Positions 139-5,251 of a DNA stretch of 5,437 bases are shown here, piece by piece; the first letter of the stretch is position 1, and the number at the start of each line of letters is the position of its first letter. The notes beneath the pieces were generated by a model. It was not told the origin of the DNA. It did no database searches and was given only the letters and a program-made list of their open reading frames with translations. Source of the stretch: Nitrospinota bacterium (GTDB lineage: Bacteria; Nitrospinota; Nitrospinia; JACRGO01); assembly GCA_016212295.1 (NCBI GenBank), contig JACRGO010000061.1:1-5437 (forward strand), read 5' to 3'. The position numbers and the translations under genes are program-made.

Positions 139-1701
139 GTGCTGGAAGGGAAAATGGACGGCATTGAAGCCGCCGGCCAAATCCATTCCCGTTTCGGCAT
201 CCCCATTATCTTCCAGACCGCCTACTCGGACGAAAAAATACTGGAACGGGCCAAGGAAATAGAACCCTTTGGATATTTGATCAAGCCCGTGCAGGAAAGG
301 GAATTGTACGCCGCAATCAAGATGGCCCTTTACAAGCGCGAGGTGGACGAGAAGCTCAGGGAAAACCAGAAGAAGCTGAGGCATGCCCTTAATGAAGCGC
401 TCAGGAGGAGGGCGGAGGTTGCCGCGCTTTTGGAAAGTTCGCGGGCCGTGCTGGAATACCGCAAGTTCGAGGACGCGGCGAAGGCCATCTTTGATTCCTG
501 CAAGAAGGTTACAGGGGCCGCAGCCGGTTACATTGCCTTGTTGACCCAGGACGGGTCGGAGACCGACGTCGTTTTTCTGGACTCCGGCGGGCGGCCTTGC
601 GACGTGGATCCCAATCTTCCAATGCCTATCCGGGGCCTTCGCGCGGAAGCATACCATACTGGAAAGGTTGTGTACGACAATGATTTTTCCGGGAGCCAAT
701 GGGCGTCCTTCATGCCGGAAAGGCACGTTGCCCTGGACAATGTCCTCTTTGCTCCCCTTATTGTTGAAGGAAAGGTGCTGGGCCTCATGGGCCTGGCCAA
801 TAAACCCAAGGGGTTCACGGAGAACGACTCCGTAATGGCCGCCGCCTTCGCGGAACACGCGGCCATTGCTCTGCAAAACAGCCGCGCCCTAATGGACTTG
901 CACAAAAAACATGAGGAATTGGAAAAAACTTTCGAAAAATTAAAAAAGGCCCAGTCGCTCTTAATCAGACAGGAAAAACTCGCTTCCCTGGGGACCCTTT
1001 CCGCTGGCGTGGCCCATGAAATCAAAAATCCCTTGAACATAATTTCCACTTCCGTCCAGTTGCTGCAGATGGAGGAAAATCTGTCCGAGGAAGCCAAGGA
1101 AGCCTATGGAACCATAATCCAGCAAGTCAACAGGGCCGCCAAAATCACTGAAAATTTAAGGGATTTCGCGCGGGAGCGAAAGCCGGAAATCAAGGAGATC
1201 GAACTTCACGCCTTTTTGGAGAAGACCCTTGCCCTGGTGGAATACGAAATGAAGGCGGAGAACCTGCAAATCGAAAAGAAATTCCACAAGGATCCAATTT
1301 ATATAAACGGGGACGAGGACCAATTGGCCCAGGTGTTTTTGAATATGATCGGCAACGCCAGGGACAGCATGAATGAAAAGCAGAAGTGCCATTCCTATGA
1401 AGACCTCCAGAAAATGGGATGGTCGGGGCGGTTGACGGTGCAAACCGGGGTTTCCGGTTCCCAGGCCTTTGTCCTGTTCCAGGACACTGGATCAGGCATG
1501 ACGGAGGAAGTGAAAGGAAAAATTTTCGATCCCTTTTTCACCACGAAAGGGGAGGGGAAAGGGACCGGGCTTGGGTTGTCCATTGCCTACGGCATCATTG
1601 AGGCCCACGGCGGGACTATCAAGTTTGAAAGCAAGGAAGGCAAGGGAACCAAGTTTGTCATTTTCCTTCCTTTAAACCGGCCAGAGGCCGGAACCAAATA
1701 G
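139..1701 (+). CDS. Soluble GAF-domain sensor histidine kinase with a half receiver domain at its N-terminus
   Basis: A cytoplasmic two-component kinase expected to autophosphorylate on His and pass phosphate to a receiver such as those encoded downstream. Order of parts in the 520 residues: C-terminal half of a receiver (1-66, with the switch Thr at 27 and conserved Lys49-Pro50); coiled coil (about 68-98); GAF domain (about 98-248, with the MPERH...LDNVLFAPL stretch common in kinase-linked GAF domains); second coiled coil (250-280); HisKA with phospho-accepting His293 in AHEIKNP; HATPase with N-box Asn402/Asn406, G1 box DTGSGM (449-454), F box DPFF (464-467) and G2 box GTGLGLS (475-481). No membrane segment or signal peptide is visible. 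The receiver lacks its acidic pair and phospho-Asp: the frame begins just after that position. The start is uncertain. GTG 139 has only a weak AGG (129-131) upstream, while ATG 154 has GGAAGGG (144-150) but tight spacing. The kinase core looks intact, so it may work without a functional receiver. It could instead be a 5'-truncated remnant. Confidence 0.9.
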   Translation: MLEGKMDGIEAAGQIHSRFGIPIIFQTAYSDEKILERAKEIEPFGYLIKPVQERELYAAIKMALYKREVDEKLRENQKKLRHALNEALRRRAEVAALLESSRAVLEYRKFEDAAKAIFDSCKKVTGAAAGYIALLTQDGSETDVVFLDSGGRPCDVDPNLPMPIRGLRAEAYHTGKVVYDNDFSGSQWASFMPERHVALDNVLFAPLIVEGKVLGLMGLANKPKGFTENDSVMAAAFAEHAAIALQNSRALMDLHKKHEELEKTFEKLKKAQSLLIRQEKLASLGTLSAGVAHEIKNPLNIISTSVQLLQMEENLSEEAKEAYGTIIQQVNRAAKITENLRDFARERKPEIKEIELHAFLEKTLALVEYEMKAENLQIEKKFHKDPIYINGDEDQLAQVFLNMIGNARDSMNEKQKCHSYEDLQKMGWSGRLTVQTGVSGSQAFVLFQDTGSGMTEEVKGKIFDPFFTTKGEGKGTGLGLSIAYGIIEAHGGTIKFESKEGKGTKFVIFLPLNRPEAGTK

Positions 1702-1950: not shown

Positions 1951-3198
1951 ATGCAGAACACGGAACAAAAATCCCGCGCGATTTTGATTGTGGACGACGA
2001 ACCCCAAATCTGCGCCAACATCGGCAAAATATTAAGCAAAAAGGGATTTATCTCCCTGGAGGCGCATAACGGGGTGGAGGCATTGAGCGTGTTGAAGGAA
2101 AAATTTGTCGATCTGGTCTTGCTGGACGTCAAGATGCCCCAAATGGGCGGCCTGGAAGCCCTGAAAAAAATAAAAGAAAAATACCCGGAAATAGAGGTCA
2201 TCATGGCCACGGCTTTTTCCGACCTGGAAACCGCTATCGAGTCCATGAAACACGGGGCCTTTGGCTTCCTTACCAAGCCTGTAAACGCGGAACACCTTGT
2301 CATGGAGATCAACAAGGCCCTTGAGCACGGGAGAATGCTCCGGCAAATTAAAATTTATGAAAAAAGACTGGAGATGAAGGTCGATGACAAGACCGAAGAG
2401 ACAAAATATTTATACGGTTTGTTGGAAGCTAACTTTGTCAAGGCCATCCATGTGTTTGTGGACCTTATAGCTCTAAGCGATCCCTTTTTGGCCGGGCACT
2501 CCAAGCGGGTGGCGGAATTGGCGGTGAAAACCGGACAAAAACTCAATCTGAATGAAAAACGGCTGCTGGACCTGGAGCAGGCCGCCTTGTTGCACGATAT
2601 CGGGAAACTGGGGGTCCCTGAAAGGATAAGATTTCTGCCTTATGAGGACCTCAACCCCAAGGAGAAATCACTGATGCAAAGACAAGCCCTGCTTGTCCAG
2701 CAAATTCTTGCATCGGCCAGTCATTTACAGAGGGCGGGGTTAATAATTAAAAGCCGCGCGGAAAGAGTGGACGGGAAAGGGTTTCCGGAAGGTCTGAAAG
2801 GCGATGAAATACCAATGGAATCACAAATTTTGTCGGTCGCTAACGCCTTTGAAAACAGCGCCAATAATCCCATGAAAAAAGAGAGCGATGAGTATGCCGC
2901 TGCCGCTTATTTGGAACGCGAAACAGGGAGCCGGTTCCGCCAAAAAGTGGTAAAAGTATTTTTAGAGGCCGTTGAAGAATTGAAATTCCGGCAAAAACAG
3001 GAAATGGCCCTCCCCCTGGCGGAATTGAAGGAAGGCATGGTTTTAACTAAAAACATTATTGATGATAACGGACAAATGGTCCTTTCAAAAGGAAGCCGGC
3101 TTACCTCCGCCCAGATCGCCATGATAAAAAATCATGATCTTTTCACCAGCACGGTCTCCCAAAGGATTTTCGTCTTGAAGGAGAGCATCGGCTCGTGA
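1951..3198 (+). CDS. Response regulator: receiver plus degenerate HD-GYP-like output domain
   Basis: A 415-residue cytoplasmic regulator. The receiver (about 9-125) is complete: acidic pair Asp15/Asp16, phospho-Asp59 in LVLLD, Thr87 and Lys109-Pro110. A charged signalling helix (about 126-165) leads to an HD-GYP-like domain (about 165-345). That family normally hydrolyses cyclic di-GMP at a two- or three-metal site. Here GHSKRV (His183) and HDIGK (His215, Asp216, Lys219) are kept, but the HHExxDGxGYP motif reads RAERVDGKGFP (269-279), the 'HP' His is Gln245, the Glu before the GH motif is Ala174, and the VAD Asp is Asn298. Catalysis is therefore unlikely. A C-terminal module (about 356-400) with LKEGMVL and a G-x-x-V-L-S-K-G turn is shared with the regulator at 3856-5094. 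The upstream ATG 1864 would add 29 residues coded by repeat DNA and is rejected. The gene lies 249 bp after the kinase, its probable partner, and converges on the toxin gene with a 14-bp gap and no terminator between them. Confidence 0.9.
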   Translation: MQNTEQKSRAILIVDDEPQICANIGKILSKKGFISLEAHNGVEALSVLKEKFVDLVLLDVKMPQMGGLEALKKIKEKYPEIEVIMATAFSDLETAIESMKHGAFGFLTKPVNAEHLVMEINKALEHGRMLRQIKIYEKRLEMKVDDKTEETKYLYGLLEANFVKAIHVFVDLIALSDPFLAGHSKRVAELAVKTGQKLNLNEKRLLDLEQAALLHDIGKLGVPERIRFLPYEDLNPKEKSLMQRQALLVQQILASASHLQRAGLIIKSRAERVDGKGFPEGLKGDEIPMESQILSVANAFENSANNPMKKESDEYAAAAYLERETGSRFRQKVVKVFLEAVEELKFRQKQEMALPLAELKEGMVLTKNIIDDNGQMVLSKGSRLTSAQIAMIKNHDLFTSTVSQRIFVLKESIGS

Positions 3199-3212
3199 AC
3201 AAAAGTCCAGCC

Positions 3213-3476
3213 TCAATAAACTTCATCGTGAGAGCCAATATCGAGGAGGTGGACAATGTCGTCGTATAGCTTGAATACGACTCTCAAATCTTGTGTCAGG
3301 GAGCAGGCGTATTTGCCTTTCAGGCGGCCTTTAAGAGGATGGGTGTGCAAAGTCGGATCAAAGGGATTGATAGAGAGTTTTGAAAGTAGAGTCTCGTATG
3401 TCTTTTGGAGCAAGGGGTTCCTTTTGAGTAATTTTTTTGAACGTTTACTAAAACTCCTTTCAAGTTCAAGCCTCAT
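3213..3476 (-). CDS. Type II toxin of the RelE/YafQ superfamily (probable mRNA interferase)
   Basis: An 87-residue basic protein. Toxins of this group cleave mRNA in the ribosomal A site and are held inactive by the partner antitoxin. Visible family features are a basic N-terminal helix (KRSKKLLKRNP, 11-21), NPFDPTLHTHPLKGRLKGKYACSL (37-60, given here by its key residues His44, His46, Lys49 and Lys53), DLRVVFKL (63-70) and the characteristic ending LLDIGSHDEVY (77-87) with His83. Length and motif order match an intact member. The frame is open further upstream, but the start at the ATG at 3476-3474 gives the usual MRLEL N-terminus and overlaps the antitoxin end by 11 nt. With no clear ribosome site, translation is probably coupled to the antitoxin. 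The family is clear; cleavage activity is inferred from it. Confidence 0.88.
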   Translation of the reverse strand: MRLELERSFSKRSKKLLKRNPLLQKTYETLLSKLSINPFDPTLHTHPLKGRLKGKYACSLTQDLRVVFKLYDDIVHLLDIGSHDEVY

Positions 3477-3702
3477 CATCGTCATCAGGGGCATTAAAGA
3501 TAGCCTGCATCGCCTCTTCAACGGAATTGCAGATTACAGAGTCATTCTCTTGTTCCGCCTTCAGCACGCGCTCCACGAATGCCTTGTGCTTTTTCTCTTT
3601 TTCAAGAAAATAGCCCACAATATCCAGAATCTCCTGGAGCCGTTTTTCTGGAAGTTGGGGGAGCAGATTGTCTATATTGGCGATAGCCATGCTCTTGGTC
3701 AT
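3466..3702 (-). CDS. Putative antitoxin paired with the RelE/YafQ-type toxin
   Basis: A 78-residue protein encoded immediately upstream of the toxin in the usual antitoxin-first order. The N-terminal half (about 8-37) is helical and contains LLPQLPEKRLQEILDIVGYF, a pattern of small antitoxin-like proteins. I see no ribbon-helix-helix or helix-turn-helix that I can name, so whether it binds its own promoter is open. The C-terminal part (about 57-78), SVEEAMQAIF followed by the acidic tail DDDDE, is the kind of flexible acidic segment that wraps a basic RelE-type toxin. The start may be ATG 3702, which would make the message nearly leaderless from the promoter at 3709-3738, or ATG 3690 (residue 5), which has a weak AAGAG before it. 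Identification rests mainly on its position next to a clear toxin. Confidence 0.75.
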   Translation of the reverse strand: MTKSMAIANIDNLLPQLPEKRLQEILDIVGYFLEKEKKHKAFVERVLKAEQENDSVICNSVEEAMQAIFNAPDDDDEA

Positions 3703-3708
3703 AAAATT

Positions 3709-3738
3709 ATCTTATGAAAAAAAGAATATAAGTGTCAA
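3709..3738 (-). promoter_or_regulatory. Sigma-70-like promoter for the toxin-antitoxin pair
   Basis: On the minus strand a perfect -35 box TTGACA (complement of 3733-3738) is followed after 18 bp by TAAGAT (complement of 3709-3714), four of six matches to the -10 consensus. Transcription would begin at about 3702, at or next to the antitoxin ATG. The outer arm of the CTAAAG palindrome ends 2 bp upstream of the -35 box. Confidence 0.6.
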
Positions 3739-3739
3739 G

Positions 3740-3833
3740 GAACTAAAGCGCCTAAAGTTGTGGTAGGTTTCTTTTTATAATGAAAAAATAGCTTCCACAA
3801 CTTTAGTCACTTTAAATTTTAGTTCACTTTAAA
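3740..3833. repeat. Nested palindrome made of CTAAAG/CTTTAG hexamers in the divergent promoter region
   Basis: The inner arms are a perfect 12-bp inverted repeat: CTAAAGTTGTGG (3752-3763) and CCACAACTTTAG (3795-3806). The outer arms are a perfect 8-bp inverted repeat: GAACTAAA (3740-3747) and TTTAGTTC (3818-3825). The 31-nt centre can pair further (TTTTT at 3772-3776 with AAAAA within 3783-3788). The hexamer CTAAAG occurs at 3743 and 3752. Its complement or a one-base variant occurs at 3801, 3810, 3817 and 3827, so the copies are about one helical turn apart. TCACTTTAAA is also directly repeated (3807-3816 and 3824-3833). It could be an operator serving the outward-facing promoters or a small mobile palindrome. 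The sequence alone does not decide. Confidence 0.65.
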
Positions 3834-3841
3834 CTTGAATT

Positions 3842-3847
3842 TATAAT
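3842..3847 (+). promoter_or_regulatory. Perfect -10 box TATAAT placed for a leaderless transcript
   Basis: TATAAT ends 8 nt before ATG 3856, so transcription would start at about 3854-3856, on or just before the start codon. No purine-rich ribosome site precedes the ATG. The -35 region is poor: TTTAGT at 3818-3823, with 18-bp spacing, lies in the outer arm of the palindrome. An activator or the palindrome itself may therefore matter for expression. Confidence 0.5.
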
Positions 3848-3855
3848 ATAAAACC

Positions 3856-5094
3856 ATGCAAACAAATCATGTCCTCGTGGTGGATGACGAAGTCAAGGTC
3901 TGCGAGATCGTAGGACGTTTTCTCCAGGCCAAGGGCTTCGTGGTGTCCCGGGCCCATAACGGACTGGAGGCGTTGGAGGCCTGCGCCTCCCAAAAGCCGG
4001 ACGTAGTCGTCATGGATATCCGGATGCCGAGGATGGACGGCGTGGAATGCCTGAAAAGAATCAAGGAGACGGCCCCGGATACTGAAGTCATCATGTCCAC
4101 CGCAGTGGAGGAATTGAACACCGGGATCTCCTGCATGAAAATGGGGGCCTTTGGGTATCTCAATAAACCGATAAACCTGGAAAATTTATTCATTGAGATT
4201 AACCGCTCCCTGGAACACCGGAGGCTGGTCCTTGAAAACCGGGATTATCAAATCAACCTGGAAAAAAAGGTGGAGGAGCGGACCCGTGAGGTCCTCCAAT
4301 TGAATGAAAAACTCAAGGAGAGTCTGCTGAATTCGGTGAGGATCACCTTGGGCATACTGGAGACCACCGACGTATTTTTCGCCGGGCATGCGAAAAGGGT
4401 CTCCATCTGGGCCGTGGCCGTCGCCCACTACATGGGCCTGGGCGCGCAAGAGGTCTTTGACATTGAATTGGCCGCGCTGCTGCACGAGATCGGCCAGATA
4501 GCCATCCCGGAGGAGATCAGGAACGCCTCCTTCAAGGAATTGTCCATCAGGGAAATCAACATGGTCAAGGAGTATCCGGCGCTCACGCAACGGATACTGT
4601 CCCCCTCGGAGGAGCTCCGAAGGGCCGGGGTTTTGGTCCGCCATCATCTGGAGCATCTTGACGGGACCGGTTTCCCTGACGGCCTTAAGGGAGACAGCAT
4701 CCCCCTGGGGTCGAGGATTATAGGCGTGGTTAATGCCTATGACGAATTGGAAAGCCGCAGGCGGTTCACTTCGGAAAAATTTCCTTCGGATAAAACCAAG
4801 GATGACTTCGTTTTTTCCAATCTGAGAAAACACGCGGGGAGGCATTATCAACCGGAGATCATCGACAAGCTGGAAGAGGCCCTGGCCGGCTACCATAAGC
4901 TCGCGAAGACGAGGGCTTTATGCACGGTAAATGAATTGAAGGCCGGCATGGCCCTGGCCTCGGATATTCATCTGCGCGGGGGGAAGCTGTTGATTAAAAA
5001 AGGGGCCATTCTGAGCGACGTACACGTGGCGAAACTCAACGCCTTATATAAAATGTATCTACTTGAGGGCGATATTTACATTTGGAAGTCATAG
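3856..5094 (+). CDS. Response regulator: receiver plus degenerate HD-GYP-like output domain (paralog of the regulator at 1951-3198)
   Basis: A 412-residue cytoplasmic regulator with the same architecture as the gene at 1951-3198. The receiver (about 4-120) is complete: Asp10/Asp11, phospho-Asp54 in VVMD, Thr82 and Lys104-Pro105. A signalling helix follows (about 122-160), then an HD-GYP-like domain (about 160-345) and the shared C-terminal module (about 358-400; LKAGMAL, then G-K-L-L-I-K-K-G). In the HD-GYP-like part, Glu169 and GHAKRV (His178) are present, but the HD dyad reads HEIGQ (His210, Glu211, Gln214 for Lys). The 'HP' His is Tyr240, the HHE motif reads H264-L-E266 followed by DGTGFP, and the VAD Asp is Asn293. 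Loss of cyclic di-GMP hydrolysis is likely, although Glu211 could still ligate a metal. It is divergent from the toxin-antitoxin pair. The start has no ribosome site and lies directly under a TATAAT. The stop codon TAG uses the first two bases of the palindromic element at 5093-5242. Confidence 0.9.
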   Translation: MQTNHVLVVDDEVKVCEIVGRFLQAKGFVVSRAHNGLEALEACASQKPDVVVMDIRMPRMDGVECLKRIKETAPDTEVIMSTAVEELNTGISCMKMGAFGYLNKPINLENLFIEINRSLEHRRLVLENRDYQINLEKKVEERTREVLQLNEKLKESLLNSVRITLGILETTDVFFAGHAKRVSIWAVAVAHYMGLGAQEVFDIELAALLHEIGQIAIPEEIRNASFKELSIREINMVKEYPALTQRILSPSEELRRAGVLVRHHLEHLDGTGFPDGLKGDSIPLGSRIIGVVNAYDELESRRRFTSEKFPSDKTKDDFVFSNLRKHAGRHYQPEIIDKLEEALAGYHKLAKTRALCTVNELKAGMALASDIHLRGGKLLIKKGAILSDVHVAKLNALYKMYLLEGDIYIWKS

Positions 5095-5242
5095 CGCGGC
5101 GTGGCCGCGACCAAAATAAATTTCGGCGTATTCAAACGTTTGATGATATTATTACGTTCAGAAATTTACGTTTTCCGCTTGAAATAAAATCAGCGTTGTA
5201 TGCTTCAAGAGAAATTTATTTTGGTTGCGGCCATGCCGCGCT
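5093..5242. repeat. 150-bp palindromic, MITE-like element abutting the regulator stop codon
   Basis: Two 32-bp terminal arms (5093-5124 and 5211-5242) are complementary at 30 of 32 positions. The two exceptions (5101 with 5234 and 5109 with 5226) are G opposite T, so an RNA copied from the plus strand would pair along the whole arm through G-U wobbles. Pairing continues imperfectly inward; for example, AACG...TGAT at 5135-5144 faces ATCAGCGTT at 5189-5197. Each end also folds by itself: CGCGGC/GCCGCG at 5095-5109 with a 3-nt loop, and GCGGC/GCCGC at 5227-5239. No protein-coding frame of note lies within, and I see no obvious target-site duplication. The shape fits a non-autonomous mobile element, or a long 3' RNA hairpin that could end or stabilise the regulator mRNA. 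Confidence 0.7.
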
Positions 5243-5251
5243 CCACCACAA

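Follow-up and report, generated by a model that had tools for sequence, protein, structure and literature searches.

What can a response regulator still do when its output domain has lost most of the residues that would make it an enzyme? This question is raised by a 5437-base contig of a Nitrospinota bacterium (C5), which was analysed at its full length and is referred to here as the window; it belongs to a 3.74 Mb genome of 237 contigs that is 90.5% complete. Two genes on its forward strand, R1 (1951-3198) and R2 (3856-5094), each encode in an uninterrupted reading frame a receiver, a helical linker, an altered HD-GYP domain of the kind that in its canonical form is a cyclic di-GMP (c-di-GMP) phosphodiesterase, and a C-terminal domain. 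In our reading, to which we assign a probability of about 0.62, both proteins are phospho-switched pseudo-phosphodiesterases that would act by binding partner proteins, in the manner of NosR and HnoD.

Both proteins are response regulators of the HD-GYP family. Pfam assigns the domains Response_reg and HD_5 (PF13487) to each (E about 1e-31 to 1e-33), with HD_5 lying at 2452-2937 in R1 and at 4354-4857 in R2. The receiver (PF00072) is matched at E 2e-31 in R1 and R2 alike, and the PF13487 scores, 115.6 bits for R1 and 112.6 bits for R2, stand against a cut-off of 27.2; in the C-terminal domain of either protein, no Pfam family scored above its cut-off. The key receiver residues are intact in both (D15/D16/D59/T87/K109 in R1, D10/D11/D54/T82/K104 in R2). 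AlphaFold models, built from 22-sequence alignments with a mean predicted local distance difference test score of 89.0 for R2 and 87.0 for R1, match the HD-GYP structures 4mcw, 4r8z and 9rbz, and their best HD-GYP matches in Foldseek are c-di-GMP-bound DvhD, PmGH and PA4781. VIA gave a Z of 21.9 for R2 with 4mcw; its matches cover mainly the receiver and are little informative on the C-terminal domain.

The changes become visible at the metal site. Ligand columns were placed by phmmer alignments to PDB HD-GYP chains together with a joint MAFFT alignment, taking as reference PmGH of P. marina (4mcw), whose eight metal ligands are E185, H189, H221, D222, H250, H276, H277 and D305 (PMC4159591). 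At these columns, in order, R1 carries F, H183, H215, D216, Q245, R269, A270 and N298, and R2 carries F, H178, H210, E211, Y240, H264, L265 and N293. On the forward strand of the window, the retained HD dyad of R1 (His215-Asp216) is encoded at 2593-2598, Gln245 at 2683-2685, Arg269-Ala270 at 2755-2760 and Asn298 at 2842-2844; in R2, His210-Glu211 replaces the HD at 4483-4488, Tyr240 lies at 4573-4575, His264-Leu265 replaces the HH pair at 4645-4650 and Asn293 lies at 4732-4734. Three of the eight ligands are kept in R1 (H183, H215, D216) and three exactly in R2 (H178, H210, H264), with Glu in addition for the HD Asp. Counted over the seven shared ligands needed for an active HD-GYP phosphodiesterase (H189, H221, D222, H250, H276, H277, D305), each protein again has three. 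The losses at H250, H277 and D305 are common to both, while Glu at D222 and Gln at K225 are found in R2 only and Arg at H276 in R1 only; R1 keeps the Lys of the K225 column (K219), and the position of D183, a catalytic residue in PmGH, is conserved in both.

The original prediction had these residues and their numbering right, and the comparison with PF13487 and HD-GYP structures upheld its family and fold assignment. Its three remaining ligands in R1 stand; its four in R2 hold only if Glu is accepted for Asp. It had also counted the Phe at the E185 column as a loss, which is not damage because about half of the HD-GYP family carries Tyr or Phe there and is predicted to bind two metals (PMC4159591), so that Phe is the normal state of that subfamily; the other losses were confirmed. 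That the two proteins had lost different halves of the site is accurate for D222, K225 and H276 but passes over the three losses that they share.

PmGH requires each of H221, D222, H250, H276, H277 and K225, and single changes to Ala at any of them essentially abolish its activity (PMC4159591); hydrolysis by R1 or R2 is therefore improbable. The replacement of lost ligands at shifted positions was rejected, as the neighbouring aligned positions hold no His, Asp or Glu alternative. In the same genome, 15 of the 18 HD_5 domains retain all usual ligands and heavy alteration is confined to R1 and R2, so it is not a matter of chance. Catalytic loss in both proteins, as originally claimed, thus appears well supported by inference from the PmGH mutagenesis and from the sites retained elsewhere in the genome. 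Another domain of that set (G000:C134:6149-6571) departs at H189 (Asn) and H276 (Glu) and keeps the HD. It is unlikely that R1 and R2 are residual or altered enzymes in which a one-metal HD site (H183/H215/D216 in R1, H178/H210/E211/H264 in R2) cleaves some phosphoester. Such a role would fit the H...HD and K219 kept in R1 and the existence of mononuclear phosphomonoesterases in the HD superfamily (PMC4159591), but it has to contend with the PmGH requirements, with Asn at D305 in both proteins and with the lack of nearby substitutes in the alignment.

Loss of hydrolysis does not decide whether the nucleotide is still bound. The genome encodes 9 GGDEF and 18 HD_5 domains, so c-di-GMP signalling is present and targets for the nucleotide exist in it; no EAL domain scored above threshold in the genome, and HD-GYP proteins are its sole recognised phosphodiesterases. 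The guanine clamp of PmGH consists of L310 and R314, with M646, R650 and Y652 as the DvhD counterparts. At the DvhD contacts L577, K582, Y621, M646, R650 and Y652, R2 has L, I, F, L, R and F, while R1 has L, K, F, a gap, N and M. The full orthologues of R2 also keep a clamp of Leu, Arg and an aromatic residue, with Ile for Leu in one genome (G013). Because the clamp is kept in R2 and lost in R1, R2 could plausibly bind c-di-GMP and R1 is unlikely to, and the original suggestion of c-di-GMP binders accordingly survives for the former and is weak for the latter.

The known case is the HD-GYP domain of DvhD from Desulfovibrio vulgaris (9RBZ, 9RC0), in which metal-free binding of c-di-GMP is not followed by hydrolysis (PMC13090378). 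Like R1 and R2, it is degenerate, with Asn at the D305 column (VAN), and its fold matches both models; unlike them, it belongs to a membrane protein with PAS and without a receiver, and its HD and HH have become SQ and MN. From Lys582, Tyr621, Arg650 and Tyr652 of DvhD, R2 keeps the Arg and has Phe for both Tyr, whereas R1 keeps the Lys. A tentative alternative, which we consider possible although it is not the one we favour, is that proteins of the R2 type serve first of all as c-di-GMP receptors gated by phosphorylation, effectors like DvhD for which protein contacts would be secondary. The conserved clamp and the DvhD complex as top HD-GYP structural match speak for this; the Phe in place of the GYP Tyr, the Ile or Val at the Lys582 column of R2 and its orthologues, and the Ser at the K317 column of PmGH speak against it.

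Whether the altered domains are in use can be judged from their conservation. For R2, three other genomes contain an orthologue: one of the same genus (G001, 63% identical), G013 (57%) and G015 (52-58%, divided between two contigs). All three orthologues covering the site have HE in place of HD and Asn at the D305 column; the HH pair reads HQ, HL and HL, and the H250 column Tyr, Tyr and Ser. The same substitutions are thus found in homologues, as the original prediction had asked of the locus. The HD-GYP domain of R2 is as conserved as its receiver (identities of 62% and 62% with G001, 58% and 53% with G013, HD-GYP first), its conservation extends across two families, and between G013 and G015 its nonsynonymous divergence (dN) is 0.15 against a synonymous divergence (dS) of about 2.5, the other pairs being synonymously saturated. 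With dN so far below dS, the altered output domain is maintained under purifying selection and is not decaying, at least in R2. The constraint on the phosphorylation input that had been proposed is supported by inference from the fully conserved receivers, as predicted; the accompanying proposal that selection acts on this input only is not supported for R2.

R1 presents a different picture: no orthologue was found among the 77 genomes of the class (the phylum-level set consists of the same 77 genomes), including the same-genus G001, which is rated 99% complete, and its best matches in the class are the R2 orthologues at 40%. A scan of GTDB contigs with R2 returned mostly receiver-only matches. 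The solitary position and stronger divergence of R1 are what would be expected if one or both proteins were functionless pseudoenzymes heading for loss, which we regard as quite improbable in view of the open frames, the intact receivers and the conservation of the R2 domain.

The distribution of the two genes bears also on an idea of the original prediction, namely that R1 and R2 are kept together and form a heterodimer. An obligate heterodimer with complementing halves would agree with the closeness of the genes, their common strand and the difference in their retained residues. We find it extremely improbable, since R1 is absent from all three other R2-bearing genomes, the three ligands lost in both proteins would still be lacking from any shared site, and the genes are separated by a toxin-antitoxin pair of the YafQ/RelE type. 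This pair (3213-3702, reverse strand) consists of a toxin gene and an overlapping small upstream reading frame assigned as antitoxin by position alone.

A histidine kinase gene accompanies R2 throughout: in each of the four genomes, R2 or the orthologous gene has the kinase gene upstream on its own strand. Kinase and regulator are separated by R1 in the window and, in G001, by a small receiver gene. In the window, the kinase (139-1701, forward strand) comprises a partial receiver, GAF, HisKA and HATPase_c domains, and its core shares 52-56% identity with those of the G013 and G015 kinases. The G001 orthologue of R2 stands in a cluster of MotA, MotB, a PAS kinase, a receiver, R2 and a further receiver (L134, G001:C604), a neighbourhood hinting at a link to motility. 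Elsewhere in that genome (L139, G001:C455), a cluster including a kinase with 48% identity to that of the window also encodes a canonical, intact HD-GYP protein; this protein has a receiver 57% and an HD-GYP domain only 29% identical to those of R2, and active and inactive outputs of one kinase family have possibly exchanged domains.

The history of the two proteins was examined in a tree of 26 proteins. Those with the C-terminal domain fall on one side (100/99) and the shorter canonical receiver-HD-GYP proteins on the other. On the former side, R2 with its own orthologues, R1, a G004 protein and a clade of 12 proteins form separate branches whose order is a polytomy. Placing R1 and R2 as sisters, as after a recent tandem duplication, was rejected (p-value of the approximately unbiased test, p-AU, 1e-57); they are old, separate lineages. 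Neither R1 with R2 and the 12-protein clade (p-AU 0.34) nor R1 with the G004 protein (p-AU 0.46) was rejected, and one origin of site loss and several are indistinguishable on this tree. The G004 protein is a member of the NosR family within the class (469.5 bits) and has an intact site.

The 12-protein clade, which we call the QC clade, comprises receiver-HD-GYP proteins from three other families of the class (f5, f8, f9) with a uniformly altered site: the HD and Lys are kept, F, I or Y replaces H250, Gln-Cys (His-Cys in one) replaces the HH pair, and Asn replaces D305. The clade also lacks the clamp Arg. This conserved HD...QC...N site is apparently undescribed. Its loci are L140, L141, L143 and L145-L151 (in G014, G048, G041, G039, G044, G043 and G037), and two members are divergently paired in G014 and in G048. 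An intermediate state is seen in a partial paralogue of G001 (C149), in which the losses are confined to H277, D305 and the residue of the E185 column; its neighbours are an intact receiver-HD-GYP gene and a receiver-kinase gene. It may be, although we hold this to be a speculative and rather doubtful proposal, that R2 and the QC clade are lineage-specific receiver-controlled HD-GYP pseudoenzymes in which the metal site was not merely lost but, with Glu replacing Asp and Gln-Cys replacing His-His, remade to give a sensor of c-di-GMP, redox state or a partner that is metal-free or has one metal.

Receivers joined to dead HD-GYP domains are already known from other bacteria, both as an architecture and as a class of mechanism; what is of interest in R1 and R2 is the conserved, lineage-specific remodelling of the site. 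HnoD of Shewanella oneidensis is described as a response regulator whose degenerate HD-GYP domain lacks phosphodiesterase activity and that acts as a suppressor of HnoB, an EAL enzyme (PMC6335343, citing Plate and Marletta 2012). By that description, rather than by sequence, HnoD resembles R1 and R2 in joining a kinase-controlled receiver to an HD-GYP domain without the catalytic ligands; it differs in its target, an EAL protein, whereas no EAL domain is detectable in the present genome. NosR of Burkholderia pseudomallei (HG-GTP) is phosphorylated by NosK and predicted to be inactive; its proposed target is another c-di-GMP enzyme (PMC12570481). Its family (NF053512) shares the receiver, HD-GYP and C-terminal layout and the kinase neighbour, is the best full-length NCBIfam match for both proteins, and includes a further degenerate member in B. 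pyrrocinia (NZ_CP150851.1, 566 bits, with HG and GTP changes). The residues lost in R1 and R2 are different ones, and filing them under NF053512 was rejected, with 284.2 bits (R1) and 276.1 bits (R2) against a curated cut-off of 400. No protein with the FIST domain of NosP (PF08495) was matched in this 90.5% complete genome. While PmGH and the canonical phosphodiesterases of PF13487 have the same fold and family, most of their metal site is lost in R1 and R2. Bd1817 of Bdellovibrio, a weak sequence match, is likewise an HD-GYP fold without phosphodiesterase activity, but it lacks the GYP Tyr and its two-iron site is intact (PMC4159591).

Under the partner-binding reading, a histidine kinase, for R2 most likely the adjacent one (139-1701) or a member of its family, would phosphorylate the receiver, and the degenerate HD-GYP domain would receive the signal by way of the long helix. 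Without hydrolysing c-di-GMP, this domain would bind other proteins and so control them, a mode of action described for HnoD and suggested for NosR. R2 can probably still bind c-di-GMP without metal, while R1, probably unable to do so, would work by protein contact only. The general idea of non-catalytic regulators in the original prediction is thus a reasonable one. Several observations weigh against this reading. R1 keeps H...HD and the Lys and could still bind a single metal ion, and in some metalloenzymes Glu can substitute for Asp as a ligand. The G001 kinase beside the R2 orthologue is merely 28% identical to that of the window, and the kinase neighbouring R2 is incomplete at its receiver end. 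Finally, R1 is a lone sequence without orthologues, and the evidence for constraint is limited to R2.

The kinase frame opens within the receiver, right after the phospho-Asp position, and the first half of the receiver is absent at the 5' end of the contig; the preceding AT-rich, non-coding positions 1-140 reflect either a truncation or a contig-end artefact. The leader of R1 (1735-1951) bears a palindromic repeat present in a dozen or more places, the nearest copy of which (87%), together with the sequence after it, lies at C226:235-505 (L142), just upstream of a canonical receiver-HD-GYP gene, so the two receiver-HD-GYP genes have a common leader. An imperfect (80%) inverted repeat of 35 nucleotides at 3744-3814, immediately upstream of R2, may be another small repeat element. 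An element of about 150 bp (5090-5245) that resembles a miniature inverted-repeat transposable element, with inverted ends of 32 nucleotides (94%), starts at the stop codon of R2; it is one of about 40 near-full-length copies in the genome, which are 83-93% identical. No Rfam RNA was found in the window.

Automatic annotation would call R1 and R2 c-di-GMP phosphodiesterases, which, judging from their sites, they most likely are not. If they are non-enzymes, the view of c-di-GMP turnover would change for an organism that has no detectable EAL domain and depends on HD-GYP proteins. The altered site is conserved in R2, and a large sister clade has a different but uniform one (QC...N); together these suggest that HD-GYP pseudoenzymes under receiver control belong to the established signalling repertoire of this class.

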